A stretch of DNA of 51,135 nucleotides from assembly GCA_020356025.1 (NCBI GenBank), contig CP070630.1:1400278-1451412 (forward strand). The letters run 5' to 3'. The DNA is from Dehalococcoidia bacterium (GTDB lineage Bacteria > Chloroflexota > Dehalococcoidia > SM23-28-2). Below are positions 1 through 45,330 of the stretch, in pieces; position 1 is the stretch's first letter, and each line of letters opens with the position of its first letter. The notes beneath the pieces are model-generated. The model saw nothing but the letters and a program-made list of their open reading frames with translations, had not been told where the DNA came from and did not search any database. The position numbers and the translations under genes are program-made.

Positions 1-573
1 GAGGATGATGAGCATGGGAACGATGGTGGCTCGTGCCCAGGAGGCGAACTCGTAGATGTTGAGGGGGAACCAGGAGGGGAGGAGCATGAACTCTGGTGGC
101 AGGACGGGCACGCCTCGCCAGTCCCACTGGTCGAAGAGGGCCAGCCAGACCTTGGTGAAGATGCGGACCTTGGGTACGCCACCACGCGACAGTACGAACC
201 GGCGGGCCTTGGCCATGGCTGGCTCCTCGGGGGAGACGCCAGCCAGCTTGAGGGCGAAGTAGGCCTCGACGGTAGCGTTGAGATCGCTGGGGCCGCCATG
301 GTAGATGCTCCAGGTGCCGTCGGGGAGCTGTTGGCGACGCAGGTAGTTGATGATCTTGTCCCAACGGCGACGGTCGGCCGCACCCAGGAAGTGAGTCAGC
401 AGAAGGTATTCGGCGGCCATGCAGACATTGGTCTCCAGCTCCGCCCACCAGTAGCCCTCTGGGTACTGGATGCTCAGCAAGTAGTCCTGGGCACGCTGGA
501 TGGCCACTCCCACGGCTTCAGAGATATCGGCAGTGCTTTTCTTAACGGCGGTTTTCGGTTGAGTCTCTTTCAT
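1..573 (-). CDS. shc: Squalene-hopene cyclase, N-terminal part (cut by window edge)
   Basis: The first 191 codons of a squalene-hopene cyclase, the membrane-associated enzyme that cyclises squalene to hopene or hopanol. The family is usually 630-660 residues, so the catalytic DxDD motif lies outside the window. What is visible is the typical N-terminal alpha/alpha-barrel start: an alpha helix beginning near residue 22, a WWAELE stretch, the first QW-like repeat (QLPDGTWSIY, about residues 81-90) and the SDLNATVEAYFALK segment conserved in bacterial cyclases. The ATG at 573 has a GGGAG seven bases upstream. It overlaps the end of the hpnG gene by 32 bp, so it is the last visible gene of the hopanoid operon and is probably translationally coupled. 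Identification is firm; only the rest of the gene is unseen. Confidence 0.9.
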   Translation of the reverse strand, partial: MKETQPKTAVKKSTADISEAVGVAIQRAQDYLLSIQYPEGYWWAELETNVCMAAEYLLLTHFLGAADRRRWDKIINYLRRQQLPDGTWSIYHGGPSDLNATVEAYFALKLAGVSPEEPAMAKARRFVLSRGGVPKVRIFTKVWLALFDQWDWRGVPVLPPEFMLLPSWFPLNIYEFASWARATIVPMLIIL

Positions 574-1357
574 TTTTGACTCCCGGGATAATGCGAGGCG
601 GCCAGGATCCCACGAAGGCTTCAGCGAAGACGGCCAGCCTCTGGCTCGCCCGGCGGGTGTTGACGGCCAGGCGGACGAGGGCTGGTATCTGCCCTGGTCG
701 CGAGAGGAGATGGCGCAAGGCCCGACTCCTGGCGATGGCTCCGGTCTCGTCGACTGTGTTGGGCAGGTCGGGCAGGCGGTCGCCAAGTTCATCCAGGATG
801 ACTCGCACGATCAAGAAGGGGATGCCCTGATCGGCGGCAACGCGGCCCACCCAATAGCTCTCCATCTCCACCATCTCGACCGGTAGGCTGTCTCCAATTC
901 GCCGCTTGACTTCGGGCTGGTCGATCACCTGGGGGACGGTGAGAGAGACGCCCTCACGGAAGGCCAGCCTCCTCTGTCGAGCCGCCGCCACGGCCAGTTC
1001 CACCAGTGCAGGGTCGCAGGCTAGCCCATTGGACGCTGCCAGTGGACCCTCATGGAAGGGTTCATGCAGGGCATATACCTGGCGAGCGATGACTAGATGG
1101 CCGACCCGGAGTTCGTCCGTCAGAGAGCCGGCGAGTCCAATCGAAAGGATGGCCTCTGGGCTGTGGTGCTGTATCAGAGCGGAGGTGGCCTCCTGTGCGC
1201 GGGCGGAGCCCATCCCCGTCCGCGCTACGAGGACCTGCCTTCCAGCGAGCGTCCCTTCGCGTGTGGGCGGCCAAGGAGGCGAAGGGCAACGTTTGGCCTT
1301 GGCCCTTCTTTCCAGGGGCGAGAGCTCTACGTCCAGGGCGGCGATGATGGCGATCAT
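542..1357 (-). CDS. hpnG: Hopanoid-associated nucleosidase/phosphorylase HpnG
   Basis: A 271-residue member of the purine-nucleoside phosphorylase / MTA-SAH nucleosidase superfamily. It starts with the hydrophobic strand MIAIIAALDVEL and has the glycine-rich SIGLAGSL turn near residue 75 and a VEMESYWVG stretch near residue 165, matching the MExE substrate-binding region of this fold. In the hopanoid pathway HpnG removes adenine from adenosylhopane to give ribosylhopane or its phosphate. The function is assigned from the family and from its place directly after hpnH (10 bp gap). The start ATG has AGGAG seven bases upstream. The C-terminus overlaps the cyclase gene by 32 bp. A generic nucleosidase role is the only real alternative, and the operon argues against it. 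Confidence 0.85.
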   Translation of the reverse strand: MIAIIAALDVELSPLERRAKAKRCPSPPWPPTREGTLAGRQVLVARTGMGSARAQEATSALIQHHSPEAILSIGLAGSLTDELRVGHLVIARQVYALHEPFHEGPLAASNGLACDPALVELAVAAARQRRLAFREGVSLTVPQVIDQPEVKRRIGDSLPVEMVEMESYWVGRVAADQGIPFLIVRVILDELGDRLPDLPNTVDETGAIARSRALRHLLSRPGQIPALVRLAVNTRRASQRLAVFAEAFVGSWPPRIIPGVKNERDSTENRR

Positions 1358-1367
1358 CGTCTCACTC

Positions 1368-2384
1368 CTATCTGGGGGAGAAGAGCGCTCGCCGCGCCAT
1401 CTCCCAAGCCGCTGCCGGTTTCTCCAGGGCCTCCAGAATGGCTGCGCCTTCGTAGCCGCAGTGCATCATGCAGCTGGCACAGCGAGGGTCTCGGCCGAAG
1501 CCGTAGCTGGACCAGGGGGTGCGCCTCATAAGCTCAGCGAACGTGCTCACGTGCTGGTCGGCGATGAGATAGCAGGGCTGACGCCAGCCCAGGGGCGTCC
1601 GGGTGGGGACCGTCCACGGACTGCACTGGTAATGGCGCTTGCCCTGAAGGAAATCCAGATAGAGAGGGTTGTTGTAGAAGCGGGTACCGTTTCGGCATCC
1701 TTCAAAGATGGACTGAAAGAACGCGATGGCCTGCTGACGGGCCAAGAAAATGTCCTTCGTAGCGACCTCCTCAAATCGGAACCCGGGCGAGACCATGATC
1801 CCCTCGACGCCCATTCTGGTGAGCATGGCGAACAGTGTCTGAAACTCCTGCGGCTGGACTCCGTTGTAGAGGGTGGTGTTGGTGCAGACTCGGAAGCCGG
1901 TCCGGCGGGCCAACCGAATAGCCGTGACCGCCACGTCGTAGACGCCCTGGCGGCCCACCGAGCGGTTATGGGTTTCGCGCAGGCCATCGAGATGGACGAC
2001 AAAGCTGAGGTAAGGGGAAGGGTTCAAGCTGCTCAACGCGCGCTTCATGAGGAGGGCATTGGTGCACAGGTAGACGAAGCGCCTCTGGCGGACGATGCTT
2101 TCCACGATCTGGTCGATATCGGGGTGCATCAGGGGCTCGCCCCCAGCGATGGAGACCACCGGTGCGCCGCACTCCTCCACGGCAGTCAGGCACTCTTCCA
2201 CTGTCATCATCCGATCGATGACCGGCTCGTACTCTAGAATGCGGCCGCAGCCCTCACAGGCCAGATTGCACTTCTCCAGAGGCTCGAGGATCATAGTGAG
2301 GGGAAAGCGGCGCCGTCCTCGGATCTTGTTCTCGACAAGATAGCGGGTCAGCTTCAGGGCTAGCTCCACAGGTTGTCCGGCCAT
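1368..2384 (-). CDS. hpnH: Radical SAM adenosylhopane synthase HpnH
   Basis: A 338-residue radical SAM protein. The CxxxCxxC cluster motif is Cys39, Cys43 and Cys46, followed by the SAM-binding SIAGGEPL segment near residue 98. Length, the N-terminal segment before the cysteines, and the Cys pair near the C-terminus (CASCMMHCG) match HpnH. HpnH adds a 5'-deoxyadenosyl radical to diploptene to make adenosylhopane, the first step in building the hopanoid side chain. The ATG has GAGGGGAG about five bases upstream. It lies 36 bp after the prenyl synthase gene and 10 bp before hpnG, in the usual hpnH-hpnG order. Confidence 0.92.
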   Translation of the reverse strand: MAGQPVELALKLTRYLVENKIRGRRRFPLTMILEPLEKCNLACEGCGRILEYEPVIDRMMTVEECLTAVEECGAPVVSIAGGEPLMHPDIDQIVESIVRQRRFVYLCTNALLMKRALSSLNPSPYLSFVVHLDGLRETHNRSVGRQGVYDVAVTAIRLARRTGFRVCTNTTLYNGVQPQEFQTLFAMLTRMGVEGIMVSPGFRFEEVATKDIFLARQQAIAFFQSIFEGCRNGTRFYNNPLYLDFLQGKRHYQCSPWTVPTRTPLGWRQPCYLIADQHVSTFAELMRRTPWSSYGFGRDPRCASCMMHCGYEGAAILEALEKPAAAWEMARRALFSPR

Positions 2385-3450: not shown

Positions 3451-4782
3451 TTACTCTCCCACCAGCTGAACCACGACCTCCCGCTCTCGGCCCCGGTCGA
3501 GCTCTATCAGGAAGAGACGTTGCCACTGGCCTAAGAGGAGCTGGCCAGCGACTATAGGGATGGCTTCGCTCGCTCCCAGGAGGAGCTGCTGGCAGTGAGA
3601 GTGGCCGTTGGGCTGCTCGCCGTCGCTCATGTTGGCGGTGCGACGGCTGAAGTCATTGTGGCTGTAGTAGATATGGGCGGGAGCGACCTTCCTCAGGAAC
3701 TCTTCCATGTCACGCAAGAGCATGGGCTCGTTCTCGTTGATGCGAACGGCTGCCGTCGTGTGGCGAGTGAAGGCGATGGCGAACCCGTTGCGGATGTTTG
3801 ACTCTTGGGCGAGGCCAGCCACCCGATCGGTGATGTCGATGAACTGGGGGCCCTTGTCCGTGCGAATCAAAAGGCGGCGGAAGGAGAACTTCACACTGGG
3901 CAAGGCTTCGCCCTGTCCGCTCAGGGCTCGCAGGCGCTGACTGGCCAGATCCTGAAGGTGCTGCACAACTTGGTCGATGGACTCGTCGGGGGTGGAAGCG
4001 CCGGCGGTCACCCCGACCGAGTCTTTGTCCATCAGCCAAGCAGGATCGATCTCGCTAGCCGTCTCCACCTGATGGGACTCCACGCCCGTAGCAGCGCAGG
4101 TGTCGGTTAGCTTGCGGGTGTTGGCGCTGTTCCTGCCCCCCACAACTATAAGGAGGTCGCATTCCTTGGCCAACTCGCGTGCGGCCTGGTAGCGCTCCTC
4201 GGTCTCGGGACAGGTGGTATTGATGATCCGCAGTTCGTTTATGCTGCCGATGCGTTTGGTCATGAACTTGGCCACGAAAGCAGTGAAGGATTCCTCGCTT
4301 TTTGTGGTTTGGGATAGGAGGGCTACCTTGCGTTGGCGAATCGCCAGAGGTGCCTCCGGGTCTTGCAAGGCAGAGCCATCACCATTGGTCCAGGCCAGGA
4401 CGGCCCGCACCTCCGGGTGATCCTCGTCACCGTAGATCAAGACCTGGAAGCCATCGGCCTGCAGGCGCTGGGCCATCTTCTGCAACTTGCGCACGATGGG
4501 GCAGGTGGCATCGATCACGCACAGCCCTCGCGCCGCCGCCTCCTGCATCACCTCGGGTCTAGTTCCGTGGGCGGTGATGGCGACGGTGGCATTCTTAACA
4601 TGCTCCAACCCGTTCACAACGTCAACACCCTTGACAGCCAGGCGTTTGACCACCTCCGGGTTGTGCACTATTGAGCCGAGGCTGTCGATGGGCCCGTACT
4701 CCTCCGCCCCTCGCTCCACTACCTCGATAGCCCGGCGCACTCCGAAGCAGAAACCTAGAGCTTTGGCTTTCTTGATCTTCAT
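3451..4782 (-). CDS. ispH: IspH (HMBPP reductase) fused to a C-terminal YjbQ/UPF0047 domain
   Basis: A 443-residue two-domain protein. Residues 1 to about 290 are 4-hydroxy-3-methylbut-2-enyl diphosphate reductase, the last enzyme of the MEP pathway, making IPP and DMAPP. The three 4Fe-4S cysteines are Cys12 (GFCFGV), Cys94 (DATCP) and Cys191 (NTTCPETEER); the substrate His residues (His40, His72, His122) and the catalytic Glu124 of the HPEV motif are present. Residues 297-443 form a complete YjbQ-type domain with its RHTTAAVRINENEP and NGHSHCQQLLLG motifs. YjbQ proteins have been linked to thiamine-phosphate synthase-like activity, but their main role is unclear. The reading frame is continuous, with no internal stop or restart. 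The ATG has AGGAG six bases upstream and overlaps the hpnE stop by 4 bp. IspH is normally 280-320 residues, so the fusion is clear. Confidence 0.93.
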   Translation of the reverse strand: MKIKKAKALGFCFGVRRAIEVVERGAEEYGPIDSLGSIVHNPEVVKRLAVKGVDVVNGLEHVKNATVAITAHGTRPEVMQEAAARGLCVIDATCPIVRKLQKMAQRLQADGFQVLIYGDEDHPEVRAVLAWTNGDGSALQDPEAPLAIRQRKVALLSQTTKSEESFTAFVAKFMTKRIGSINELRIINTTCPETEERYQAARELAKECDLLIVVGGRNSANTRKLTDTCAATGVESHQVETASEIDPAWLMDKDSVGVTAGASTPDESIDQVVQHLQDLASQRLRALSGQGEALPSVKFSFRRLLIRTDKGPQFIDITDRVAGLAQESNIRNGFAIAFTRHTTAAVRINENEPMLLRDMEEFLRKVAPAHIYYSHNDFSRRTANMSDGEQPNGHSHCQQLLLGASEAIPIVAGQLLLGQWQRLFLIELDRGREREVVVQLVGE

Positions 4783-6230
4783 GCCTTGCTCCTAACGGAT
4801 GACAGATGAAGATTGCCTCCTAAGCAGGTCTCGGTAGGTGTCTCAATAGTCTCTTGGCGACCTCCTTTCTGCACGGAACGGGGTGCGAGGCGAAGTATCT
4901 CCCTGGCGCAGGCAAGGCCGCTCCGGACGGCGCCCTCCATGGTGGCTGGCCATCCCGTAGCCGTCCAATCGCCAGCTAGGAAGAGGTTTTCGATGGGTGT
5001 ACGACAAGGGAGCCGATACTTGGAGGAGCCTGGCACGGGCGCGAAGGTAGCCTGCGGCTGCTTCACCACTAGGCAGCGCTCTATCTGTGCCCGGCGAGCC
5101 TTGGGGAACAGCTTGCGAAGCTCGCGGGTGAAGCGCTCGATGATCTCCTCGTTGGACAGGTCGATGTAGTGCCGCGCTCCGCTGAGGGAGATGTCTAGGT
5201 ACTGGCCGTCGTCGGCCAGATCCCACATCTTGCTCTTGTTGAACACCCATTGCGCTTCGCTGTTGATGAAGGCGGCGAAGTCGAGATCCATGACCGGCCG
5301 GTCGTACCACAGGTGGATGTTGACGATGGAGCTCGTGGTGAGCTTGCTTGCTCGTCCAAAGAAGGGATCGGCGCGAAGATCGGGCGGAATGACGGCGAGG
5401 AGCATCTGGTGGGGTACCGCGCAGACGTACCACTCTCCCCGCAGGACGCTGCCGTCGGCGAGCCTGACGCCTGCTATGCGTTCTTCTTCTAGCAAGAGAT
5501 CTTCCGTTTTCTGGCCCAGGAGGACACGGCCGCCTCGCTCCTCAATGTAGCGGCGGGCCTCCGTGCCGACAAGGCTCGTGAGCCCCACCGCGGCGTAGCC
5601 AACGTTGGCCCCGTTTGCCCGCTTCAGGAAGCCCTCCTGAAAGACCATCATCGCCAGGTCGGCGCTGACCTTTCGGACGTTGTCGTTGAGGGTGGCGAGA
5701 CCGATCAGGTTCCAGAAGCGGTCGATGGCCGCCTCGGTCTGACCATGATCCTTAAGCCAGCGATAGAAGCTGATGGAATCGAGATTGCTGTTCTTCGTTC
5801 GATCAGTGAAAAGGATGGAGAGCATGGCGTAGGCCGCCCGCACCTTGTCCAAAGGAGAGAGGTGGCGGAAGCGCAGGAAGGAGGGTAAGAGATGGAAAGG
5901 AGCGGGGAGAGAGGAGCCCTCAAGGGTGCTGGCTCCCGCGCGGGGATCGATGACGGTCACCCGCAGTCGCTTCTGCAGGCGGGTCTTGTCCCAAACGCCC
6001 AGCCTCTGGAGGAAGCGGATGTAATAGGTGCAGCATTTCAGGAACACATGCTGGCCATTGTCTACTTCGCCCTGTCCCTGAGGGTCGGCGAAGGAGTAAG
6101 CGCGCCCGCTCAGCGAGGATCGCCGCTCAGCGAGGATGACTTTGTACCCGTGATCCGCCAGCTCACAGGCCGCCGACAAGCCAGCCAGGCCGCCGCCGAT
6201 GATGATTGCCTGGGGCTTCTCCTCGGTCAC
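4779..6230 (-). CDS. hpnE: Hydroxysqualene reductase HpnE (FAD-dependent desaturase family)
   Basis: A 483-residue FAD-dependent amine-oxidase/phytoene-desaturase-type protein. The N-terminal dinucleotide-binding motif is IIGGGLAGLSAACELADHG followed by the acidic strand end (LAER), and the C-terminal FAD motif is LFLAGDWTATGWPATMEGAVRSG. This matches squalene-associated HpnE, which reduces hydroxysqualene to squalene in the HpnCDE route. It starts at a GTG overlapping the hpnD stop by 4 bp and ends overlapping the ispH start by 4 bp. A carotenoid desaturase is the alternative by homology, but the flanking hpnC and hpnD favour HpnE. Confidence 0.9.
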   Translation of the reverse strand: MTEEKPQAIIIGGGLAGLSAACELADHGYKVILAERRSSLSGRAYSFADPQGQGEVDNGQHVFLKCCTYYIRFLQRLGVWDKTRLQKRLRVTVIDPRAGASTLEGSSLPAPFHLLPSFLRFRHLSPLDKVRAAYAMLSILFTDRTKNSNLDSISFYRWLKDHGQTEAAIDRFWNLIGLATLNDNVRKVSADLAMMVFQEGFLKRANGANVGYAAVGLTSLVGTEARRYIEERGGRVLLGQKTEDLLLEEERIAGVRLADGSVLRGEWYVCAVPHQMLLAVIPPDLRADPFFGRASKLTTSSIVNIHLWYDRPVMDLDFAAFINSEAQWVFNKSKMWDLADDGQYLDISLSGARHYIDLSNEEIIERFTRELRKLFPKARRAQIERCLVVKQPQATFAPVPGSSKYRLPCRTPIENLFLAGDWTATGWPATMEGAVRSGLACAREILRLAPRSVQKGGRQETIETPTETCLGGNLHLSSVRSKA

Positions 6231-7087
6231 GTCACCAGGCTCCGAACAAGCTCTCGGCCGGCCAGGGCCAGTTTCTGGCTGCCACTTAGACTCACTCTCT
6301 CTCGCAACACAGCGGACGGCCGAGCCTCGATACGCTCCAAGATCCTGCCGTAGATTGCCTGCAGGACGGCTGTGCAGGCTCGGGAGCGGCGTGGGAGAAG
6401 AGGCAGCAGCTTTCGCCCCCGCTCGAAGTACTCGCGCGCCCGCTCCACCTGGAACTGCATGAGATGCAGGGACGCTTCATTGGCGATGCCGCCAAGAATA
6501 TCGGCTTCTGAATAGCGGAAGCGCTCCATTTCATCCTGGGGAATGTAGATGCGATCCCTCTCAGCGTCCTCGCGGATATCCCGCAGGATATTTGTAAGCT
6601 GCAGGGCAATGCCCAGATCTTCAGCGTGTTGGCGGGCTTGCTGGCCGTCCCGGTAGCCGAAGATCTCGATGGAGATGAGGCCTACGGTGGAGGCAACGCC
6701 GTAGCAGTAGCGGCGCAGGTCAGCGAAGGTGGGATAACGGCGCACGTTCAGGTCCATCTCCACACCGTCGATGAGCTGCCAGAAGTACTCGGGCGGGATG
6801 CGATAGCGAAGGATGGTGTCCTGCAAAGCCAGGAAGATGGGACCGGAGGGGTAGCCGTGCAGGCATTGCTCCAACCGGCTGCGATATTCGGCCAGTTGTC
6901 GGGCCTTCTCCTCGGGCTCCAGGTCGTTGTCCACAATGTCGTCGCAGCGGCGGGCGAACGCGTAGCTGGCGTAGATAGCCTGTCTCTTTGGAGCTGGCAG
7001 GAGAATAAAGCCGTAGTAGAAGTTCTTCGCCTCTTGCTTGGCTAGCTCTTGGCAATATCGGTAGGCTGCCTGCAATGATCCTTCCAC
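6227..7087 (-). CDS. hpnD: Presqualene diphosphate synthase HpnD
   Basis: A 286-residue squalene/phytoene synthase-family enzyme. The first Asp motif is CDDIVDN (near residue 48) and the second is ILRDIREDAERDRIYIPQDE (near residue 170), the two sites that bind prenyl diphosphates through Mg. HpnD condenses two farnesyl diphosphates to presqualene diphosphate. It is told apart from the neighbouring paralogue by the NFYYGFILLP start, typical of HpnD. The GTG start has a GAGGTGAG ribosome site just upstream, which overlaps the end of hpnC (3 bp gap). Assignment of HpnD versus HpnC follows these family signatures and the gene order. Confidence 0.9.
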   Translation of the reverse strand: MEGSLQAAYRYCQELAKQEAKNFYYGFILLPAPKRQAIYASYAFARRCDDIVDNDLEPEEKARQLAEYRSRLEQCLHGYPSGPIFLALQDTILRYRIPPEYFWQLIDGVEMDLNVRRYPTFADLRRYCYGVASTVGLISIEIFGYRDGQQARQHAEDLGIALQLTNILRDIREDAERDRIYIPQDEMERFRYSEADILGGIANEASLHLMQFQVERAREYFERGRKLLPLLPRRSRACTAVLQAIYGRILERIEARPSAVLRERVSLSGSQKLALAGRELVRSLVT

Positions 7088-7090
7088 AAC

Positions 7091-8002
7091 TCACCTCTTG
7101 CCGGTATTCACTCTTGGTCGGCCGGGCAGAAGGCCACGGATGAAGAGCGCAGCCTTCTGCCGGCGCGACAGCTGCGGCCGTCGGCGAAAGACGTCGTAGC
7201 CGTTCCTTTCGAGGGCCTTCAGGACAGTCATGCCGCCCAGGCTGAACAGCTTCAGGTCCACCTTCAGGCGGCCATCCACCATGTCTAGAAGTCCCAACCC
7301 TTCGGCGAACAGTTCCCGTGTTCGGCCGATCTCGAAGGCCAGAAGAGCACGGAAGGCAGCGTTCACGATGCCTTGCTTCAGCTCCTCCTCGGAGTAGCGA
7401 AAGCGGGTCACATCTTCCTGTGGTATGTACACGCGGCCTTTGCCTAGATCGACAGCGATATCCTGCCAGAAGTTGGTGAGCTGTAAGGCGGTGCAGGTGG
7501 CATCGGCGAGACCCTGGCGTTCGGCGTCCGCATAGCCAAACAGGTAGAGGAACAGGTGGCCGACGGGGTTTGCGGAATGATCGCAGTAGTGGAGGAGTTC
7601 CTCGAAGGTGCGGTAGCGGCTTGTCCGTTGATCCATGCGGTTGGCCTCGATAAGCTTCAGGAATGGCTGTGGCGGGATGGCAAAACGGCGAATGGTCTCC
7701 TGGAGGGCGACGAAGACGGGATGACTGGGCGTCGAGTCGTAGCAGCGCTCCAGGTCAGCTTGCCAATCGTCCAGCAGGCTCAGTCGGTCGCCCGGCGCTT
7801 CATCGCCCAGGTCGTCCACGTGGCGGCAGAAGGCGTAGACAGCATAGACATGCCGCCGGAGTGTCCTGGGAAGAAGCCAGGAGCCCACGGTGAAGTTCTC
7901 GTAGTGGCTCAGAGCGAGCCGCTGACAGTAGACAAGCGCCTCAGCGGTGGTGCAAGCATTCGCTGGTTGTCGTTCCAGCGGTCGCCTCCTTGTGGGCGGC
8001 AA
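7091..8002 (-). CDS. hpnC: Hydroxysqualene synthase HpnC
   Basis: A 303-residue squalene/phytoene synthase paralogue that starts the hopanoid operon. Asp motifs are CRHVDDLGDE and NFWQDIAVDLGKGRVYIPQED. The HYENFTVGSWLLP segment near residue 35 is characteristic of HpnC, which converts presqualene diphosphate to hydroxysqualene. The start is odd: the longest frame opens with TTG at 8002 with no good ribosome site close by. A perfect AAGGAGG lies inside the frame (7994-7988) and is followed six bases later by an in-frame CTG at 7978, with no ATG or GTG nearby. Either codon could be the true start. A promoter-like site lies about 260 bp upstream. Confidence 0.9.
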   Translation of the reverse strand: MPPTRRRPLERQPANACTTAEALVYCQRLALSHYENFTVGSWLLPRTLRRHVYAVYAFCRHVDDLGDEAPGDRLSLLDDWQADLERCYDSTPSHPVFVALQETIRRFAIPPQPFLKLIEANRMDQRTSRYRTFEELLHYCDHSANPVGHLFLYLFGYADAERQGLADATCTALQLTNFWQDIAVDLGKGRVYIPQEDVTRFRYSEEELKQGIVNAAFRALLAFEIGRTRELFAEGLGLLDMVDGRLKVDLKLFSLGGMTVLKALERNGYDVFRRRPQLSRRQKAALFIRGLLPGRPRVNTGKR

Positions 8003-8431: not shown

Positions 8432-8458
8432 CGGGTGCAGAGCGAGAGGAGCGGGGTG

Positions 8459-9835
8459 ATGATCGAAGAGTCGCTGTTCTTTGGTGACACGAGCATAAAG
8501 GTGAGCCTTCCCGACCGCACGCGACTGGTGGGCGGCGATGGCGGGGGCCCCCGGCTGGAGCCGGTGGCGGATCAAGAGGCGGCCGTTCGCGCTGCGCTGG
8601 CAGAACCGCTCGGTTTGCCCCGCGTGGGCAAGCTGGTTCGGCTCGGGGCACGGGTGCTCATTGCCTTCGACGATCCGTCAGCTCCGTCGTTCGGCCCCAT
8701 CAGGCGGTTGGCCATAGAAGCGATCCTGGAGGAGTTGGCGGACGCCGGTGTGCCCGAGGAGAACGTGTCGCTGGTTTGCGCCAATGGGCTTCACCGCAAG
8801 TGGACGCACGAGGAACTGGCGTCCATCCTGGGGCAGGAGCTCGTGCAGCGCTTCGGATCGCGTCTGACCTGCCACGATGCCGAAGACCCGGACAACCTCA
8901 CGTACATGGGGACAACGGCCAACGGATATGACGTTGAGGTTCACCGCCTGGTGAAGGACTCGGATCTGACCGTGTACATCAACGCCGCCTGCTACCTGGG
9001 CTTCAACGGCGGCTGGAAATCGGTCTGCGTTGGCCTGTCCACTTGGCGCTCCATTCGCTGGACGCACACGCCGGACGGCATGACGATGTCCGTGCGAGGC
9101 AACCGGATGCACGACGTCTTCGATGAGATGGGCCAGCATCTGGAGTCTAAGCTGGGCCGCCGGGTGTTCAAGGTGGAGACGTTGCTGGCCAATCCTGCGA
9201 CCATCGGGCGTGTGTTTGCGGGCGGTGTGGACGAGGCGCGGGCCGCAGCGCTCGAGGTGCAGGCTTCGCTGTACCAGCCGCGGCGCGCCGAAACCGAGCC
9301 CGCCGACGTGGTGATCTACGGGCTTCCAGCCTGGAGCCCATATGCCACCTTCGCGCGCATGAACCCCATCCTGACTCTGATCTCCTCCGGGCTTGGCTAC
9401 CTGGGGGGCTACATCCAGGCTCTGGGCAAGCCAGGCTGCTCTGTGATCATGGCGACGCCCTGCCCAGAGGACTGGGATCTGGAGCACCACCCCTCGTACC
9501 CGGAGGTGTGGAACCGGGTGCTGCCGGAGACCCTTGATCCGTACGAGATCAGTGCTCGCTTCATGGACGAGTTCGCCAGTCGAGCCGACTACATCGAGCG
9601 CTATCGCAACGGGTACGCGTTCCATCCAGTGCATGGGATACTGGCGACGCATCCATTGAAGCGCCTGCGACACGCGGCTCGCGTGTTCGTGGCCGGGGCA
9701 GAGGACCCGGCGGTGCCACGACACGTGGGCTTCATCCCGACCGCGAGCGTCGAAGAAGCGATAGCCGAGGCAGAGCGCATCCACGGTCACGACTGCTCCA
9801 TCGTCTGCATCAAGCAGTTCACGGGGATGATGTAG
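8459..9835 (+). CDS. LarA-like (DUF2088) protein lacking one nickel-ligand His
   Basis: A 458-residue homologue of the nickel-pincer lactate racemase LarA. Recognisable parts are the FDDPSAP segment (position of LarA Asp72), GLHRKWTHEE (position of His108), the GFNGGWK loop with Lys187 (the lysine that holds the NPN cofactor, Lys184 in LarA) and His203 (His200 in LarA, by the conserved +16 spacing). The residue ten positions before the lysine, His174 in LarA, is Ala177 here. Substrate and activity are therefore unknown. I chose the ATG at 8459 because AGAGGAG lies seven bases upstream and the longer frame would begin before the predicted transcript. No other lar accessory genes are adjacent. 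A second, canonical LarA-like gene lies at 17328-18563. Confidence 0.8.
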   Translation: MIEESLFFGDTSIKVSLPDRTRLVGGDGGGPRLEPVADQEAAVRAALAEPLGLPRVGKLVRLGARVLIAFDDPSAPSFGPIRRLAIEAILEELADAGVPEENVSLVCANGLHRKWTHEELASILGQELVQRFGSRLTCHDAEDPDNLTYMGTTANGYDVEVHRLVKDSDLTVYINAACYLGFNGGWKSVCVGLSTWRSIRWTHTPDGMTMSVRGNRMHDVFDEMGQHLESKLGRRVFKVETLLANPATIGRVFAGGVDEARAAALEVQASLYQPRRAETEPADVVIYGLPAWSPYATFARMNPILTLISSGLGYLGGYIQALGKPGCSVIMATPCPEDWDLEHHPSYPEVWNRVLPETLDPYEISARFMDEFASRADYIERYRNGYAFHPVHGILATHPLKRLRHAARVFVAGAEDPAVPRHVGFIPTASVEEAIAEAERIHGHDCSIVCIKQFTGMM

Positions 9836-20724: not shown

Positions 20725-21876
20725 CTATTGCGCCTCGGGGTCGGTCTCGCAGTCCGTACACATCACGTCGTCCCACGCCTCGTCGTCGTTGACCATGTCG
20801 TCGACCCAGTCGTGAAGCTTGACTCCCTCCACCTCGCGGCTGTAGAAGATGTCGTCGCCGGTCATGCAGTGGATCTCGCCCGGGGCGATGTAGGCGTGGA
20901 AATTGGGGGCGCCGTCCTGGATCTCCTGGATGCTGGCGAGCATGAGTTCGCCCCAGTCGTCGCCGCCACCCATAGCCGTGAAGAAGAACCCCTGGATTTC
21001 GTCATGGGCCGTGTTGTATTGCGACCAGCGGTCGTTGGGGTAGTAGTTTGCCAGCGCGATGTAGAGGTCGGCCAGCGAGGAAACCTCGTCCCAGGAGCTG
21101 CCTGGCGCTGGGACCCAGTCCGGCATGCTGTCCGCGACGTTCCAGTTCGGGTAGCCTTTCTGGAGAAAATCGCTCGTGCTCACGCCGGCGCCTGAGTCGC
21201 CAAGCTGGTAGAGGGGCGTGTCGGGATAGAGTTCGTGGATGTGGGCCGCGCCCATGATCGAGCCGTAGCTTCCCGCGCTGCAGCCGGACACGAAGATCTT
21301 CTCCGGTTCCTCGAAGTTATCCGCTATCCAGTCCAGAGCTGCACTGACGTTCACAAACCCTTTGTGATGGATGACGACGTCCTCACCCCCTGACGTGTAG
21401 GTGTGAGTGTTGTTCCCCCAATGGATGTCTCCTGTGCAATAGGGGATGAAGACGAATAACCAGTCCTTGAAGGGGTTGTCCGGGTTCTCCAAATCGAAGA
21501 TCCCTTCCGCCGCCTGGCCCGGGTTGTCGCCGTCGCCTGCGGCCGCCTTGAAGATCCCGCCGAGCGAGCAGCTCCTGTCATCCCAGCAAGCGCCACCGCC
21601 TTGGAAATAGACCACTAGGCGGTTGACCGTGCCCGGATGCACGAAGTAGACGAACGGCGTGCCGTGCGAGCAGATGGTGTCGCCGCCTGGCTCGATCTTC
21701 GTCCAGCCTGGCGCGAGGTCCGGAGTCTTCGCCGACTCTGCGGTCGCTCCCGGCGATGGCGCCTCGGCCGTCGTGGGCGTGGCGGTCGCTTCGCTCTCTT
21801 CCTCTTCATCTCCTTGACAGGCCGCGCCGAACAGAGCCACGCTAAGGACCAGAATCATCGTCAGGAGCCAACGCAT
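20725..21876 (-). CDS. Exported pectinacetylesterase-like hydrolase, paralogue 1 (putative lipoprotein)
   Basis: A 383-residue protein of the pectinacetylesterase/Notum alpha-beta hydrolase family. The oxyanion segment is YFQGGGACW, the nucleophile elbow is GCSAGSYGS, and a C-terminal His follows in GEIHC. The N-terminus is a signal sequence ending GAAC with Cys20, a plausible though not ideal lipobox, followed by an acidic/Thr-Pro linker. Several Cys pairs suggest disulfides. The ATG at 21876 is chosen because GGAGG lies seven bases upstream, rather than the longer frame. It is closely related to the next gene upstream, with near-identical C-terminal segments (GVKLHDWVDDMVNDDEAWD). The substrate is probably an acylated saccharide or other ester, and is unproven. 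Confidence 0.82.
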   Translation of the reverse strand: MRWLLTMILVLSVALFGAACQGDEEEESEATATPTTAEAPSPGATAESAKTPDLAPGWTKIEPGGDTICSHGTPFVYFVHPGTVNRLVVYFQGGGACWDDRSCSLGGIFKAAAGDGDNPGQAAEGIFDLENPDNPFKDWLFVFIPYCTGDIHWGNNTHTYTSGGEDVVIHHKGFVNVSAALDWIADNFEEPEKIFVSGCSAGSYGSIMGAAHIHELYPDTPLYQLGDSGAGVSTSDFLQKGYPNWNVADSMPDWVPAPGSSWDEVSSLADLYIALANYYPNDRWSQYNTAHDEIQGFFFTAMGGGDDWGELMLASIQEIQDGAPNFHAYIAPGEIHCMTGDDIFYSREVEGVKLHDWVDDMVNDDEAWDDVMCTDCETDPEAQ

Positions 21877-21942
21877 GGCCACACCTCCTTTTGGCCCGTT
21901 CCAGAGGGCGGTGTCGATCGGCTTGGTCACCAGTTCGCCGCA

Positions 21943-22012: not shown

Positions 22013-23404
22013 TTATGGTGCCAAGGGATCGGTCTCACAGTCCGTACACATCACCTCGTCCCACGCCTCGTCGTCGTTGACCATGTCGTCGACCCAGTCG
22101 TGAAGCTTGACGCCCTCCACCTCGCGGGTGTAGAAGATGTCGTCGCCGGTGATGCAGTGGATCTCGCCCGGGGCGATGTAGGCGTGGAAATTGGAGGCGC
22201 TGGTCTGAATTTCCTGGATGCTGGCGAGCATCAAGTCGCTCCAGTCGGCAGCGGTACCGCCCATAGCGCCGTAGAAGAATATCTGGTCTACGTCGTAGGC
22301 GGTGTTGTACTGCGACCAGCGGTCCTCAGAGTAGTAGTTTGCCAGCGCGATGTACCATTTGGCCATCGTAATCTCGGTCCAGGGAATGTCCAGCGCCGGA
22401 ATCCAGTCCGGGATGTTTGCCACTGCGCCCCAGTTCGGGAAGCCGCTCGCGAAGAAATCGTCGGTGATTACGCCAGCGCCAGCGTCGCCGAGCTGGTAAA
22501 GGGGCACGTCGGGATAGAGCTCGTGGATGTAGGGTGCGCCCATGGCCGATCCGTAGCTTCCCGCGCTGCAGCCAGACACGAAGATCTTCTCCGGCTCTTC
22601 GAAGTTGGTCTCTATCCAGTCCAGAACTGTACTGGCGTTCACAAAGCCCTTGTGGTAGACGGTGGTCTCCTCGCCGCCTATCGTGTAGGTCTGGGTGTTG
22701 TCTCCCCAGTGGATGTCTGCCGTGCAATAGGGGATGAAGACGAAGAACCAGTCCTTGAAGGGGTTATCTGGATTGTCCAGGTCGAAGATCCCCGCTGCCT
22801 CGTCCGGATCGCCACTGTCGTCCGCGGTGTCGTTATAGTACGAGCCCGGGTCCGAGCAGGTGAAGTCGTTCCAGCAGGCGCCGCCGCCTGAGAAGTAGAC
22901 CACCAGGCGGTTCACCGTGCCCGGATGCACCCAGTAGTGGTACGGCGTGCCCTGCGAGCAGGTGGTGTCGCCGCCAGGCTCGATCTTCGTCCAGCCCGCT
23001 GCCAGGTCGGGCACCGCCGGCGTAGCCGTGGGGCTGGGTGTTGGCGAAGTGGGGGCTCCTGCGCTGCCAAGGGCTAACACGCCCTGCATGTCGTCCAGGG
23101 TGGCCAGGGTGCTAATTTCGGGCCGGTCGGCGAACCAGCGCGACCACTGCTGCGTGTCGGCGTCGATGCTGTAGGCGACCGCGACGCCACTTGCGTTGCA
23201 GGTGGCAAGAGCATCGTCGACGTCGGTGCCATCATCGCCGCTCCAGACGGATATCGCCCACTTGCCTGCCTGGGGGCAGTTCTGCATGGTGCCTTCGTCG
23301 GCCTCTGACGAGCCGATCCCCATGGCCCAGACCAAGGCCAACAGGCCCAGGGCAAGCATGCCTGCGGGGAGCAAGAGAGCAAGTTTCCTCCCCGGGTTAC
23401 GCAT
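22013..23404 (-). CDS. Exported pectinacetylesterase-like hydrolase, paralogue 2, with N-terminal module
   Basis: A 463-residue paralogue of the gene at 20725-21876. A membrane/signal helix covers residues about 8-29. Residues 47-113 are a copy of the W...RPEIST module also found twice in the beta-propeller protein at 14027. A Pro/Thr linker follows, and the hydrolase domain carries YFSGGGACW, GCSAGSYGS and GEIHC. The module is missing from the paralogue. The ATG has GGAGG six bases upstream and a strong promoter at 23437-23465. The gene leads a two-gene minus-strand unit, separated from its copy by a GC hairpin. Function is as for the paralogue; the extra module may bind a surface polymer, which is speculation. 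Confidence 0.83.
   Translation of the reverse strand: MRNPGRKLALLLPAGMLALGLLALVWAMGIGSSEADEGTMQNCPQAGKWAISVWSGDDGTDVDDALATCNASGVAVAYSIDADTQQWSRWFADRPEISTLATLDDMQGVLALGSAGAPTSPTPSPTATPAVPDLAAGWTKIEPGGDTTCSQGTPYHYWVHPGTVNRLVVYFSGGGACWNDFTCSDPGSYYNDTADDSGDPDEAAGIFDLDNPDNPFKDWFFVFIPYCTADIHWGDNTQTYTIGGEETTVYHKGFVNASTVLDWIETNFEEPEKIFVSGCSAGSYGSAMGAPYIHELYPDVPLYQLGDAGAGVITDDFFASGFPNWGAVANIPDWIPALDIPWTEITMAKWYIALANYYSEDRWSQYNTAYDVDQIFFYGAMGGTAADWSDLMLASIQEIQTSASNFHAYIAPGEIHCITGDDIFYTREVEGVKLHDWVDDMVNDDEAWDEVMCTDCETDPLAP
23066..23266 (-). repeat. W...RPEIST module, copy C
   Basis: Codes for residues 47-113 of the second esterase paralogue. Pattern: KWAISVWSG, Ala/Leu helix, VAVAY, then SRWFADRPEISTL and VLAL. 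Matches copies A and B in the beta-propeller protein in order and spacing of the conserved positions. Confidence 0.6.
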
Positions 23405-37108: not shown

Positions 37109-39424
37109 CTACCCGCCGAGCCCCGCGAAAGCCGCCTCCGCGGCCCGGATCGTCCGTTCGATGTCCTGCTCGCTGTGGGCCAGCGAGAGGAATCCCGCCT
37201 CGAACTGCGAGGGCGCCAGGTAGACGCCGTTCTCCAGCATCGCCCGGAAGAAGCGCGCGTACTTGTTGCTGTCGGACCTCTTGGCTGAGGCGTGGTCGAT
37301 GACCCTCTCGGCGCTGAAGAAGGTGCAGAACATGGAGCCAACGCGGGTCTGAAAGACGGGCGTCCCGGCAGCCTCGGCCGCAGCGCGCAGGCCATTCGCC
37401 AGCCGCGCCGACTTCTCCTCGAGGCGCTCGTAGACCCCGGGCTGAGCGAGCAGCTTGAGGGTCTCGATGCCAGCGGTCATGGCCAGGGGGTTGCCGGAGA
37501 GGGTGCCCGCCTGATACACGGGGCCCAGAGGTGCCACCATCTCCATGATCTCCCTGCGGCCACCGTAGGCTCCGACCGGAAGGCCGCCGCCGATGACTTT
37601 ACCCAGACAGGTTAAGTCGGGCGTTACGCCATACAGGGCCTGGGCTCCACCATAGGCCAGCCGGAAGCCGGTGATCACTTCGTCGAAGACAAGGAGTGCT
37701 CCCTCCGCCTTGGTCATCTCTCGCATGCCCTCCAGGAAGCCAGGCTCGGGCGGTATCACCCCCATGTTCCCTGCCACGGGCTCGACGATCACGGCGGCGA
37801 TCTCACCGCGGTTCTCGCTGAACAGCCTGTCAACCGCCTGCAGGTCGTTGTAGGGGGCTACTAGCGTGTCCTGGGCGGCAGCCTCTGGCACGCCGGCGCT
37901 GTCAGGCAGGCCGAGGGTGGTCAGCCCGGAGCCCGCCCGAGCCAAGAGGAAGTCGGCATGTCCGTGGTAGCAGCCCTCGAACTTGACGATCTTGCTCCTG
38001 CCTGTGAAGGCGCGGGCCAGGCGCAGGGCGCTCATGGTGGCCTCGGTGCCCGAGCTGACGAAGCGCACCATTTCGATGGAGGGCACTGCCTCCACCACTC
38101 GTTTGGCCAGTTCGGTCTCCAGCGCGGTGGGGGCGCCGTAGCTGATCCCTCGCTCCGCGGCCTCTTTTAGAGCGCCTACCACCTGCGGATGGGCGTGGCT
38201 CAGGATCAGGGCACCCCAGGACAGCATGTAGTCAATGTAGCGCCGGTCGTCCGCGTCGTAGATATAGGGACCCTCCCCTCTGGTAATGAAGAGCGGCTCT
38301 CCTCCCACGGCACGAAAAGCCCTTACGGGGCTGTTGACGCCGCCAGGCATGTACCTTTGGGCCTCGGAGTGGAGGCTCTGCGACCTGCTTGTCGTTATCT
38401 CTTCGGCTGGGGCGAAGTACGTGGGTCGCGTCTTCTTGTATTCCTTGGTGCTGAACAGGATGATGTAGTCGCTGACACCTGTCTCCTGAGAGATCTCCCG
38501 GGCGATGGCCCGGCAGTTCTCTCTGCTTCTGGCGTGGATCATCGTGAAGAGGTTGTAGGGCCAGTCGGGATAGGTGAGGCGCTGGTAGCAGTGGCTGACC
38601 TGGGGCAGAGAGGCGGCGAACGTCGCGATTCTCTCGATGCTGCCGTCCGGCACCCGCCAGGCAACCATGCCATTGGCGACATAACCTGCCTCACGGTGGT
38701 GCAGGATGGCGGCAAAGCGACGCAGCCAGCCGGCGGCCTTGGCCTCTTGCAGCCAGGCAAGCACTTCGTCCTGGCTTACCCGCAGGCGATCGGCCACGCC
38801 CGCGAAGGGCTGAGGGACGATTTCGATATCCTCCTGCAGTTCGCGGATGAAGGCCCTATCGCGGGCGTTGGGGATGGGGGCAGGGCTGGGCCGAGTCCCT
38901 TGGGCGGGCCCGGCGGGCAAAATGTCTCCCGCACTCTCCATATCCAACTGCATGCCGATCTTGAAGACCCGCAGCGCCGGAAATGGGCGGTAGGGATGGC
39001 TGCCTGCCTGGTCAACCAGCGCCTCGACAGTAGCCTCCAGATCCTCGTGTGGGGGCACGGCCAGGGTGAACCAGAGGTTCCAGGTGTGGTCGCGCTGGTA
39101 GTTGTGGCTGACCCCTGGATGGCGGTTGATCGCGGCCGCTGCTCGATCGACCTCGTCCTGAGGGGCCTGCATGGCCACCAGAGTACTCTTGTAGCCCAAG
39201 GCGGCCGTGTCAAAGATGGCGCTGATCTGGCGGATGAGCCGGTTCTTCCCGGGGTTTTTGAGACGTCGCACGCGCGCCAGCACTTCTTCCTCGGGCAGTC
39301 CGAGCTTCTCGCCGATCGCTGCGAAGGGCCGCGCGGTTGGGGGGAGGTCCTGCTGCAGGATGTCGAGCAGGCGGCGATCAACGATGTCCATCTGCTCAGC
39401 GGTCGTCTCTTCGGCTTTTGCCAT
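37109..39424 (-). CDS. hemL: AhbA-AhbB siroheme decarboxylase fused to HemL (GSA aminomutase)
   Basis: A 771-residue three-part fusion. Residues about 12-160 and 186-337 are two Lrp/AsnC-type siroheme decarboxylase halves (AhbA- and AhbB-like, as in NirDL proteins). Each has a winged-helix start and the signature [13 protein letters not shown] (His107) or [16 protein letters not shown] (His278). They remove the C12 and C18 acetate carboxyls of siroheme. Residues about 345-771 are full-length glutamate-1-semialdehyde 2,1-aminomutase, with [10 protein letters not shown] at its start and the PLP lysine in [13 protein letters not shown]. It makes 5-aminolevulinate. The frame is continuous. The ATG at 39424 with GAGGAG nine bases upstream is preferred to a longer frame that overlaps ahbC. 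It is the last gene of the heme operon, joining its first and a late step in one chain. Confidence 0.92.
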
Positions 39425-39426
39425 CG

Positions 39427-40713
39427 TCAGCGTCTCCTCGGAGCGGGGAATAATTGGGACGGCCCCGCTGATTCCTCCTGTACCGGCACCGGCCATTTGG
39501 CCGCCTCCTCGGCTGCCGGCGTCCCCGGCGCAATGCCGATCTCCTCGTCGGTCAGGTAGCAGGCCGGGTCAGGAGCCAGGGAATCGCCGAAGTAGCGCTC
39601 GGCCCGCACCCGCAGGTTGCCGTTGCACACGTCCAGCCATTTGCAGACCCGGCAGCGCCCCTTGAGGTGCGACTTGCGGACTTTCAGCACGCGCATCACC
39701 GGATCGCTGGTATCGCTCCAGATTTCGGCGAAGGGGCGCTGGCGAACGTCCCCCAGGGAGTGGTGCCAGGAGAACTGGTCGACGTGGAGGTGCCCCAGCG
39801 GATCGATGCTGGAGACGGCGATCCCCGATTGGTTCCCGCCATTCCAGAGCAGCATCTGATGGACCTCCTCCGCTCGCCGGGGCTGCTCCTTGTGCACCCG
39901 CATGTAGAGGTAGGCGTTATCGGCGTGGTTGTCCACGGTGAGGATGTCCTTCTCGATACCCCGCGCGTGGAGGTCTTGGGAGCGCTGGAAGATGTAGTCC
40001 ACCACCGCCCGTGTCTGGCTGGGCTGCAGGTCGAAGCGGCGCATCTTATCGCCTCGCCCGGCATAGGCGAGGTGATAGACGCAGACGCGGGGGATTCCCT
40101 CCTCCTCCGTCAAGTCGAATATGCCTGGCAGCTCGTCGACATTCATTGCGTGGACGGTGAAACGCAGGCCGACGGCGATGCCTGCATCCTGGCAGTAGCG
40201 GATGCCCTGCAAGGCCTGCTCGAAGGCCCCCTTCTTGCCCCGGATCTTGTCGTGCGTTGCCCCCACGCCGTCCAGACTGACGCCCACGTAGGAGAGGCCT
40301 GCCTCCTTGATCCGCTCTGCCATCTCCGGGGTGATCAGGGTGCCGTTGGTAGAGAGGACGCAGCGAATTCCCTTGCTCACGGCGTGGGCCGCTAGGTCGA
40401 ACAGGTCCTCCCGCATGAGGGGCTCGCCGCCGGAGAAGAGGAGGACGGGCACCTCGAAGTCGCCCAAGTCGTCGATCAGCCGCTTGCCCTCGGCTGTGGT
40501 CATCTCCCCTGATAGGGGCTTGTCTGTGGCGTCGGCGTAGCAGTGGGCGCAGTACAGGTTGCAGCGGCGGGTCAGGTTCCAGACCACGATGGGCTTCTTG
40601 TCCTGCGAGTAGTGAAGCAGGTGAGATGGCCCCTCGGACGTGAGGCGGCCGTAGCGCAGGGGGTCGCCGGGGGTGACCGTGCCGCTCAGCAGACGGGAGA
40701 CAGCGAGCATCAA
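39427..40713 (-). CDS. ahbC: AhbC-type radical SAM 12,18-didecarboxysiroheme deacetylase
   Basis: A 428-residue radical SAM/SPASM-like protein. The CxxxCxxC motif is Cys51, Cys55 and Cys58 ([15 protein letters not shown]), followed by [13 protein letters not shown]-terminal Cys set ([14 protein letters not shown] and a later Cys) binds an auxiliary cluster. The sequence fits AhbC, which removes the C2 and C7 acetate groups of didecarboxysiroheme to give iron-coproporphyrin III. NirJ of heme d1 synthesis is the closest alternative, but no nir genes are present and ahbD is adjacent. It starts in a 4-bp overlap with ahbD and ends two bases before the ahbAB-hemL start. Confidence 0.9.
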
Positions 40714-41816
40714 CCGCTCTCCTTCAGACGAGCCGCTTGTGGCAGAGGCGGCGGCTCGTAGACGCAGGAGGGCTCTTCATCCAGAAAGTCGCTGGTCATG
40801 CCGTACGCTCTCGCCCGACAGCCGCCGCAGACGCGCTTGAATTCGCAGCGGCCGCACTTGCCCTGGAGAAGCTCGGGGTCTCGCAAGGCGCTGAAGACCT
40901 TCGCGCCTTCCCAGATCTCCTGAAGCGGTTGCTCCCGCACGTTCCCCGCTACCAGCGGCAGGTAGCCGCAGGGGAAGACCTCGCCCTTGTGCGAGATGAA
41001 GCAGACCCCGGTTCCGCCCAGGCATCCCTTGGTCATGGCGTAAAGGTCGCTGGCTCGCTGGCGCTCCTGGCTGGGCGGCGCTTGTCGCTTCTCAGCCACC
41101 GTCCGCTGGCGGACGATGCGGAAGTAGTGAGGGGCGCAGGTGGCCTTCAGCTCCAGCAGCCCTTCCTGGTCCTTGTCGTAGAACCAGTTGAGCACCTCCT
41201 CGTACTGGTGGGGGGAGATCATCTGCTCGTCGGCGATCTCCACGCCGCAGCCGACGGGCACCAGGAGGAAGATGTGGAGGGCATCGGCTCCCAGGGAGAG
41301 GGCCAGGTCTAGAATCTGGGGCAGTTCATCGATGTTGTGGCGGGCCACGGTGGTGTTGATCTGCACGCTCATCCCCTGGCTGCGCAGGTGGCGGATGCCC
41401 TCCAGCGTCTGAGCAAAGGAGCCGGGGAGAGCGCGGAAGGTGTCGTGAGTCTCTGCTGTAGCCCCGTCCAGGCTGATCGCCACCCGCCGAATACCCGCAT
41501 CCACGATGCGCTGCGCCATTGGCTCATCGATGAGGGTGCCGTTGGTCGCCAGGGCGACGCGCAGTCCGCTGGCCACCGCATACTCAGCGATCTCGAAGAT
41601 ATCGGGCCGGATCAGAGGCTCGCCGCCCGAGAGGATAAGAATAGGATTGCAGAAGGCCACAATCTGGTCGATGAGTCCTTTCGATTCGGCGATGGTCAGG
41701 TCATCCGGCACCAGCTCGTCGGCCACGTCGATGCGGCGGCAGTGGACGCAGCGCAGGTTGCAGCCTGCGGTTGTCTCCCAGAAGATGAGACGAGGCAGGA
41801 ATTCCGGCATCATCAT
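40710..41816 (-). CDS. ahbD: AhbD-type radical SAM heme synthase
   Basis: A 368-residue radical SAM protein with Cys19, Cys23 and Cys26 (TAGCNLRCVHCRRI), the LILSGGEPLIRPD motif, and a SPASM-type C-terminus (CLGGTGVCFISHKGEVFPCGY, GKCGRCEFKRVCGGCRA and a final Cys). AhbD converts iron-coproporphyrin III to heme b by oxidative decarboxylation of two propionates. The start is one of three consecutive ATG codons (41816, 41813, 41810), four to ten bases after the hemB stop; a longer frame from 41846 would overlap hemB. It overlaps the ahbC start by 4 bp. Confidence 0.9.
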   Translation of the reverse strand: MMMPEFLPRLIFWETTAGCNLRCVHCRRIDVADELVPDDLTIAESKGLIDQIVAFCNPILILSGGEPLIRPDIFEIAEYAVASGLRVALATNGTLIDEPMAQRIVDAGIRRVAISLDGATAETHDTFRALPGSFAQTLEGIRHLRSQGMSVQINTTVARHNIDELPQILDLALSLGADALHIFLLVPVGCGVEIADEQMISPHQYEEVLNWFYDKDQEGLLELKATCAPHYFRIVRQRTVAEKRQAPPSQERQRASDLYAMTKGCLGGTGVCFISHKGEVFPCGYLPLVAGNVREQPLQEIWEGAKVFSALRDPELLQGKCGRCEFKRVCGGCRARAYGMTSDFLDEEPSCVYEPPPLPQAARLKESG

Positions 41817-41820
41817 CCCT

Positions 41821-45317: not shown

Positions 45318-45330
45318 CCCTCCTCGGCCG

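Follow-up and report, generated by a model that had tools for sequence, protein, structure and literature searches.

The question raised by this locus is why a gene for IspH (HMBPP reductase) should run on, in frame, into a YjbQ (UPF0047) domain in the middle of a hopanoid operon. YjbQ proteins span E. coli to archaea, their physiological role is unsettled, and the activities reported for them are side activities. The window, the whole stretch of DNA that was analysed (51,135 nt from a Dehalococcoidia bacterium, GCA_020356025.1), is exactly one contig with 100 N at both sides. The "one-contig" genome that holds it consists of contigs joined by 100-N runs, and its reading as a single closed chromosome was rejected.

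The fused ispH::yjbQ frame (3451-4782, minus strand) has an ATG start, no internal stop and a product of 443 amino acids. Pfam matched LYTB to residues 3-277 (E = 5e-85) and UPF0047 to residues 316-439 (E = 4e-33; PF01894, 114.6 bits against a cut-off of 27), both over the full profile. Two NCBIfam models were likewise matched at full length and over cut-off: TIGR00216 (ispH_lytB) with 259.6 bits (cut-off 187.85) and TIGR00149_YjbQ with 109.1 bits (cut-off 67.75). The IspH half keeps C12, C94, C191, H40, H72, H122, E124, T159 and the N218-S219 and GAST motifs; in IspH the three cysteines are the [4Fe-4S] cluster ligands, and the histidines and glutamate are substrate residues. The original prediction, a complete IspH part with Cys12, Cys94 and Cys191 followed in frame by a complete YjbQ domain, is borne out on both counts, and the YjbQ domain is placed here at residues 300-443. 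The frame was shown to encode a real two-domain protein, in which a predicted IspH carries a YjbQ domain of a separate subfamily, one whose genes share operons with isoprenoid genes in Dehalococcoidia and Bipolaricaulota.

Table 1. Parts of the ispH::yjbQ gene and genes of the surrounding operon, in window positions.
Feature	Position	Strand	Evidence
IspH (HMBPP reductase) domain, residues 1-282	3937..4782	-	PF02401 full-length; TIGR00216 over cut-off; Cys12/94/191 intact; dN/dS 0.19 vs G174
Interdomain linker, residues 283-299	3886..3936	-	Poorly conserved; 4-codon indel; dN/dS 0.48 vs G174
YjbQ/UPF0047 domain, residues 300-443 and stop codon	3451..3885	-	PF01894 full-length; TIGR00149 over cut-off; AF2 pLDDT 95.7; Foldseek 1vph rmsd 1.1 A; dN/dS 0.18
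hpnC (squalene synthase HpnC), first gene of the operon	7091..8002	-	TIGR03464, 335 bits, over cut-off
hpnD (presqualene diphosphate synthase)	6227..7087	-	TIGR03465, 305 bits, over cut-off
hpnE (hydroxysqualene dehydroxylase); 4-nt overlap with ispH::yjbQ start	4779..6230	-	TIGR03467, 430 bits, over cut-off
Polyprenyl (farnesyl/GGPP-type) diphosphate synthase (PPS); start 1 nt past the fusion stop codon	2421..3449	-	PF00348, 204 bits
hpnH (adenosyl-hopene transferase)	1368..2384	-	TIGR03470, 452 bits, over cut-off
hpnG-like phosphorylase	542..1357	-	PF01048; best NCBIfam TIGR03468 HpnG, 117 bits, below 187 cut-off
Squalene-hopene cyclase, N-terminal part, truncated by contig end	1..600	-	86% identity to residues 7-206 of G174 cyclase; 100-N gap just outside the window

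The operon reads hpnC-hpnD-hpnE-[ispH::yjbQ]-polyprenyl synthase-hpnH-hpnG-shc, and it was assigned to the hopanoid clusters on hpnC, hpnD, hpnE and hpnH, all over cut-off, together with the cyclase N-terminus at the contig edge. A C-terminal part of the cyclase was found on the contig placed after the window; the apparent inversion splitting this gene was rejected as biology and is a contig edge. The best NCBIfam match of the polyprenyl synthase was NF041169 (cargo of family 2 encapsulins), at 349 bits, below the cut-off of 450. Divergent beside hpnC lies a homologue of LarA-type NPN-dependent hydroxyacid isomerases (8435-9835, plus strand), closest to the LarAH14/15/16 family and below cut-off.

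Two further features of the window, both on the minus strand, were recorded. One ORF (37109-39496), in a run of heme/siroheme genes (37109-46032), encodes two siroheme-decarboxylase-like NirD/NirL (AsnC-type) domains and, in the same protein, a class-III aminotransferase resembling glutamate-1-semialdehyde aminotransferase (HemL). The frames 20725-21930 and 22013-23404 encode tandem, similar pectinacetylesterase-family proteins, both with a conserved C-terminal stretch.

A genome that is a collection of contigs joined by N invites the suspicion that the fusion is an assembly or binning artefact. This is almost certainly not the case: the fusion is flanked on both sides by the conserved operon within a single contig, and an independent MAG, the second of the genus (Dehalococcoidia bacterium SM23_28_2; G174, locus L056), has the same junction, with 83% protein identity over the full length and no stop. 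The architecture is therefore neither chance nor an assembly product, and it is not limited to one genome. The dN/dS ratios against G174 (Table 1; the linker comprises 17 codons) indicate that purifying selection holds both halves equally and leaves the joint loose.

A third species of the genus, CSMAG_2713 (G243), has yjbQ and the PPS gene adjacent and has lost hpnCDE and most of ispH; no cyclase match was found in it. The frame ahead of its yjbQ can still be aligned to residues 271-296 in the IspH half of the fusion (VVQHFQKL versus VVQHLQDL), and we read these ~26 residues as the relic of a fused gene. The window, G174 and G243 are united in a tree (support 99/90). Most likely, the fusion arose once in the ancestor of the genus and was later undone in one species. 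Because G243 keeps yjbQ beside the PPS gene after the loss of ispH and hpnCDE, the YjbQ domain appears to be useful by itself there. The genus was sampled by two genomes besides the focal one, and the fusion is restricted to it (two genomes fused, one with a relic).

The original prediction had also asked whether the two parts separate in relatives. They do, as separate adjacent genes in the order's other families and in Bipolaricaulota. Eight genomes of these other families have the same operon with ispH and yjbQ as neighbours and a stop between them. In one (G061) the two genes share a frame with a single TGA between, and it was rejected as a fusion. The ispH-yjbQ pair adjoins the cyclase in three genomes of family f21, where the sequence can be read as a yjbQ GTG start overlapping the ispH stop. 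Another candidate, G331, was rejected because its 462-residue open frame around yjbQ is not in the frame of ispH. No further ispH::yjbQ fusion was found in a phylum sample of 400.

Scanning the YjbQ alignment against 84,980 species genomes gave 219 relatives, and the loci of the best 80 were read. These 80 belong to Chloroflexota (mainly Dehalococcoidia, SAR202 included) and to Bipolaricaulota/Acetothermia. In 38 of the best 80, from two phyla, ispH lies directly upstream of yjbQ on the same strand, and it is fused in only one. Recurrent neighbours of yjbQ, judged by cluster and Pfam, were polyprenyl synthase, squalene-hopene cyclase, HpnG, HpnC/D, HpnH, HpnE, an HpnA-like epimerase and IspG. 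The typical order is PPS-hpnH-hpnG-hpnA-ispG-ispH-yjbQ-hpnC-hpnD-hpnE in Bipolaricaulota and PPS-hpnH-hpnG-hpnA-shc-yjbQ-hpnC-hpnD-hpnE in the SAR202 type; other lineages retain only yjbQ-PPS. The pairing of ispH and yjbQ is the real finding, and the fusion itself is rare and a genus-level event. Another recurrent gene encodes a DUF116 protein; it adjoins yjbQ or the cyclase both in Bipolaricaulota and in a number of hopanoid operons of Dehalococcoidia (L063, L064, L068, L123, L133, L148, L149).

These distributions bear on a deflationary explanation, in which a stop codon between neighbours was lost by chance and the fusion means nothing beyond co-transcription. Its restriction to one genus, the blank result in the phylum sample and the later loss of the IspH half in G243 all agree with such an accident, as does the closeness of the two genes in the nearest unfused relatives, G061 being a single TGA from fusion. 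Set against this are the equal constraint on both halves after fusing and the conservation of the separate-gene pairing in two phyla, and we consider a purely fortuitous fusion somewhat unlikely. It concerns the fusion and not the association, and is compatible with an explanation of the association by isoprenoid-precursor (C5) supply.

Whether the neighbourhood is a property of YjbQ in general was addressed in a class sample of 294 genomes, in which YjbQ profile scores form two groups, above ~150 bits and below ~120 bits. We read 83 upper-group and 20 lower-group loci, the latter joined by the focal genome's three other YjbQ paralogues (C1:265588, C1:532520, C1:2021540; all outside isoprenoid neighbourhoods) to give 23 canonical loci. 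An isoprenoid or hopanoid gene lay within 5 kb of 50 of the 83 subfamily genes versus none of the 23 canonical ones (Fisher p = 3e-8; this and the other genome counts given here, the family-level test excepted, treat relatives as independent). The proportion was 30/33 among subfamily members scoring at least 205 bits and 71/80 among the best named loci. The isoprenoid link is thus a property of one subfamily and not of all YjbQ. Even in that subfamily, roughly one member in three of the class sample had no isoprenoid neighbour, some members adjoining a transglutaminase-like protein and a MidA-type methyltransferase. The focal genome (G000) also has a second, stand-alone IspH (C1:1647794).

Subfamily YjbQ tends to be found together with the cyclase (both in 52 genomes, Fisher p = 5e-11). 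Strict hopanoid specificity was rejected, 51 of the 103 genomes with a subfamily-level match having no cyclase match. The common denominator is better described as precursor and prenyl supply than as the hopane skeleton, and we speak of isoprenoid supply rather than of hopanoids because several lineages keep yjbQ and polyprenyl synthase without hopanoid genes. The earlier suggestion that linkage to isoprenoid and hopanoid genes is a clue to YjbQ function is supported for this subfamily, with the emphasis moved to isoprenoid supply; the neighbourhood analysis that it had called for, near ispH or hpn genes, was strongly positive for the subfamily and negative for the canonical proteins. The literature searches made found no report linking YjbQ with hopanoids or IspH.

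Other genes recur around these loci. A PPS-hpnG-yjbQ run with no cyclase found nearby adjoins a class II aldolase, a nucleoside hydrolase and siroheme/heme genes (L082, L088, L090, L092, L093, L112, L118). Behind many hopanoid operons of Dehalococcoidia (L120, L128, L131, L144, L149, L156, L158, L160) come genes for a 2-hydroxyacid dehydrogenase, an FGGY-type kinase and a class II aldolase; the substrate of this sugar cassette might be the side chain of the hopanoid or a nucleoside product.

The YjbQ domain modelled by itself (pLDDT in Table 1) has the YjbQ fold, with 1vph found by Foldseek (E = 4e-16, TM 0.88); the search returned other YjbQ proteins only, and no other enzyme fold or isomerase matched significantly. 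The model of the whole fusion reached a pLDDT of 76.9 only, too low to place the domains, probably because the mixed alignment placed the IspH rows badly. E350, D358, Y373, H375, N392, H396, Q421, D429 and R434 are common to canonical YjbQ, and almost every one of the 163 subfamily members and 23 canonical proteins has the whole set. The subfamily carries an NGHxHCQ-type motif, and H341, N376, H394 and E427 are invariant in it and variable in canonical members. C397 was rejected as a marker of isoprenoid context, being present in 38/42 members without such neighbours versus 112/121 with them.

The retention of every residue common to canonical YjbQ means that the chemistry may be ancestral, and the family is known for weak side activities, among them a thiamin-phosphate condensation (PMC5613172) and the rescue of a pdxB mutant by yjbQ in multicopy, by an unresolved route (PMC7954711). 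Both points suit an enzyme that deals with metabolite damage or overflow late in the MEP pathway, clearing or recycling a diphosphate that is toxic or off the path (HMBPP, a prenyl phosphate or an IspH side product) and performing no IPP isomerisation. The genomic evidence for such an enzyme is the same as for C5 supply; by itself, however, it leaves unexplained the occurrence of a type 2 isopentenyl-diphosphate isomerase (IDI-2) in the slot beside polyprenyl synthase, described below. We regard it as rather unlikely, if the more serious of the alternatives on function.

The one activity in the family's name, TIGR00149 being the secondary thiamine-phosphate synthase enzyme, and the deposition of 1vmj as a putative thiamin phosphate synthase suggest another purpose for the pairing, in which YjbQ would supply thiamin diphosphate to DXS, the first MEP enzyme. 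A ThiE/TenI-family (TMP-TENI) gene is present in 23/25 genomes of the order, with three matches in the focal genome (the family includes TenI), and none of the annotated recurrent neighbours is a thiamin gene. For these two reasons thiamin is very improbable as the reason for the pairing.

A further alternative is that YjbQ supports the pathway's [4Fe-4S] enzymes, perhaps by helping to assemble or protect them. In its favour, three of the recurrent neighbours (IspG, IspH, HpnH) are iron-sulfur enzymes, and suf genes lie within ~5 kb of yjbQ in several lineages (sufB/sufC/sufD at L081, L084, L126, L139, L193, L196 and L225). Several loci, however, pair yjbQ only with polyprenyl synthase, which has no cluster. 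We also counted against Fe-S support that no suf, IspG, IspH or HpnH match lay near the 23 canonical loci, and hold it to be improbable.

The distribution of isopentenyl-diphosphate isomerases was then set beside that of the subfamily. Neither IDI-1 nor IDI-2 over cut-off was found in the 25 genomes of the focal order. In the class sample, subfamily YjbQ occurred in 103 genomes, IDI-2 in 16 and both in none (hypergeometric p = 8e-4); by family the figures were 24/85, 13/85 and no family shared (p = 0.009), and the exclusion also appeared among cyclase carriers (p = 0.012). At seven loci without subfamily YjbQ, IDI-2 lies directly beside polyprenyl synthase: L147 and L149 read PPS-IDI2-hpnH-hpnG-hpnA-shc, L148, L150, L151 and L152 are close variants, and L163 is PPS-IDI2. 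Such a pattern is what one would see if one gene had taken the place of another, unrelated one with a similar use. Against this, 23 cyclase-positive genomes of the class sample have neither subfamily YjbQ nor IDI-2, and some complete-looking hopanoid operons lack both. IDI-2 is absent in 100/100 genomes of Bipolaricaulota and subfamily YjbQ present in 58/100; as the phylum does without IDI-2 regardless of YjbQ, the exclusion is uninformative there. No IDI profile in Pfam or NCBIfam matched the fusion, which belongs to neither the IDI-1 nor the IDI-2 family.

Taken from sequence and gene neighbourhood, a role of subfamily YjbQ in isoprenoid-precursor (C5) supply is probable, and we hold it with moderate confidence. 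An ancestral ispH-yjbQ-polyprenyl synthase operon would have lost the ispH stop codon to give the fused gene. The subfamily protein would act between IspH and the prenyl synthase, on C5 diphosphates (IPP, DMAPP, HMBPP) or short prenyl diphosphates. The likeliest step would be the tuning of IPP:DMAPP supply, in which the invariant Glu/Asp/His/Asn/Arg set of the domain would act on an allylic diphosphate by acid-base or metal-assisted chemistry. Farnesyl diphosphate takes IPP and DMAPP in a 2:1 ratio. E. coli IspH releases IPP and DMAPP at ~6:1 (PMC12447371). Tuning would fit the chemistry because of the difference between these two ratios. A point against it is that MEP-pathway bacteria can live without an isomerase. 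That the isomerase step itself is the activity, making YjbQ an IPP/DMAPP isomerase analogue, is an unlikely version. More doubtful as a full proposal is that the subfamily adds a third kind of IPP/DMAPP isomerase, unrelated to the other two, or else a partner of IspH that generates DMAPP, and so replaces IDI-2 in hopanoid and polyprenyl operons, the focal protein then being a bifunctional IspH-isomerase with a balanced C5 pool from one polypeptide.

The worth of the fusion lies in where it pointed: to an ispH-yjbQ-PPS association that is conserved in two phyla and specific to one YjbQ subfamily, and to the proposal that this subfamily supplies C5 units from the place that IDI-2 takes in related operons. 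Fusion and operon pairing together tie one branch of YjbQ to isoprenoid precursor supply, which leaves a short list of substrates. Should the isomerase version hold, lipid metabolism would have a new type of enzyme at one of its central branch points, and terpenoid engineering would gain a tool.

Compared with stand-alone IspH/LytB (TIGR00216), the focal protein keeps the full domain, the cluster ligands and the substrate motifs; it differs in its added C-terminal YjbQ and is a second copy in its genome, 46% identical to the stand-alone IspH. The fusion of IspH with ribosomal protein S1, cited as the known precedent in the original prediction, exists as NCBIfam family PRK00087. There too IspH forms the N-terminal of two parts, but the focal partner is YjbQ with no S1 domain, and the match to PRK00087 (298 bits) falls below the cut-off of 624. 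With YjbQ/UPF0047 proteins (TIGR00149, PF01894; 1vph, 1vmj, 2p6h) the focal domain shares the fold and the Glu/Asp/His/Asn/Arg set, and it is set apart by the motif and the four invariant residues of its subfamily and by the isoprenoid neighbourhood. Type 2 isopentenyl-diphosphate isomerase (TIGR02151) resembles it in position, holding the place beside polyprenyl synthase in related hopanoid operons; the two are unrelated in sequence and fold, and their functional equivalence is only inferred.
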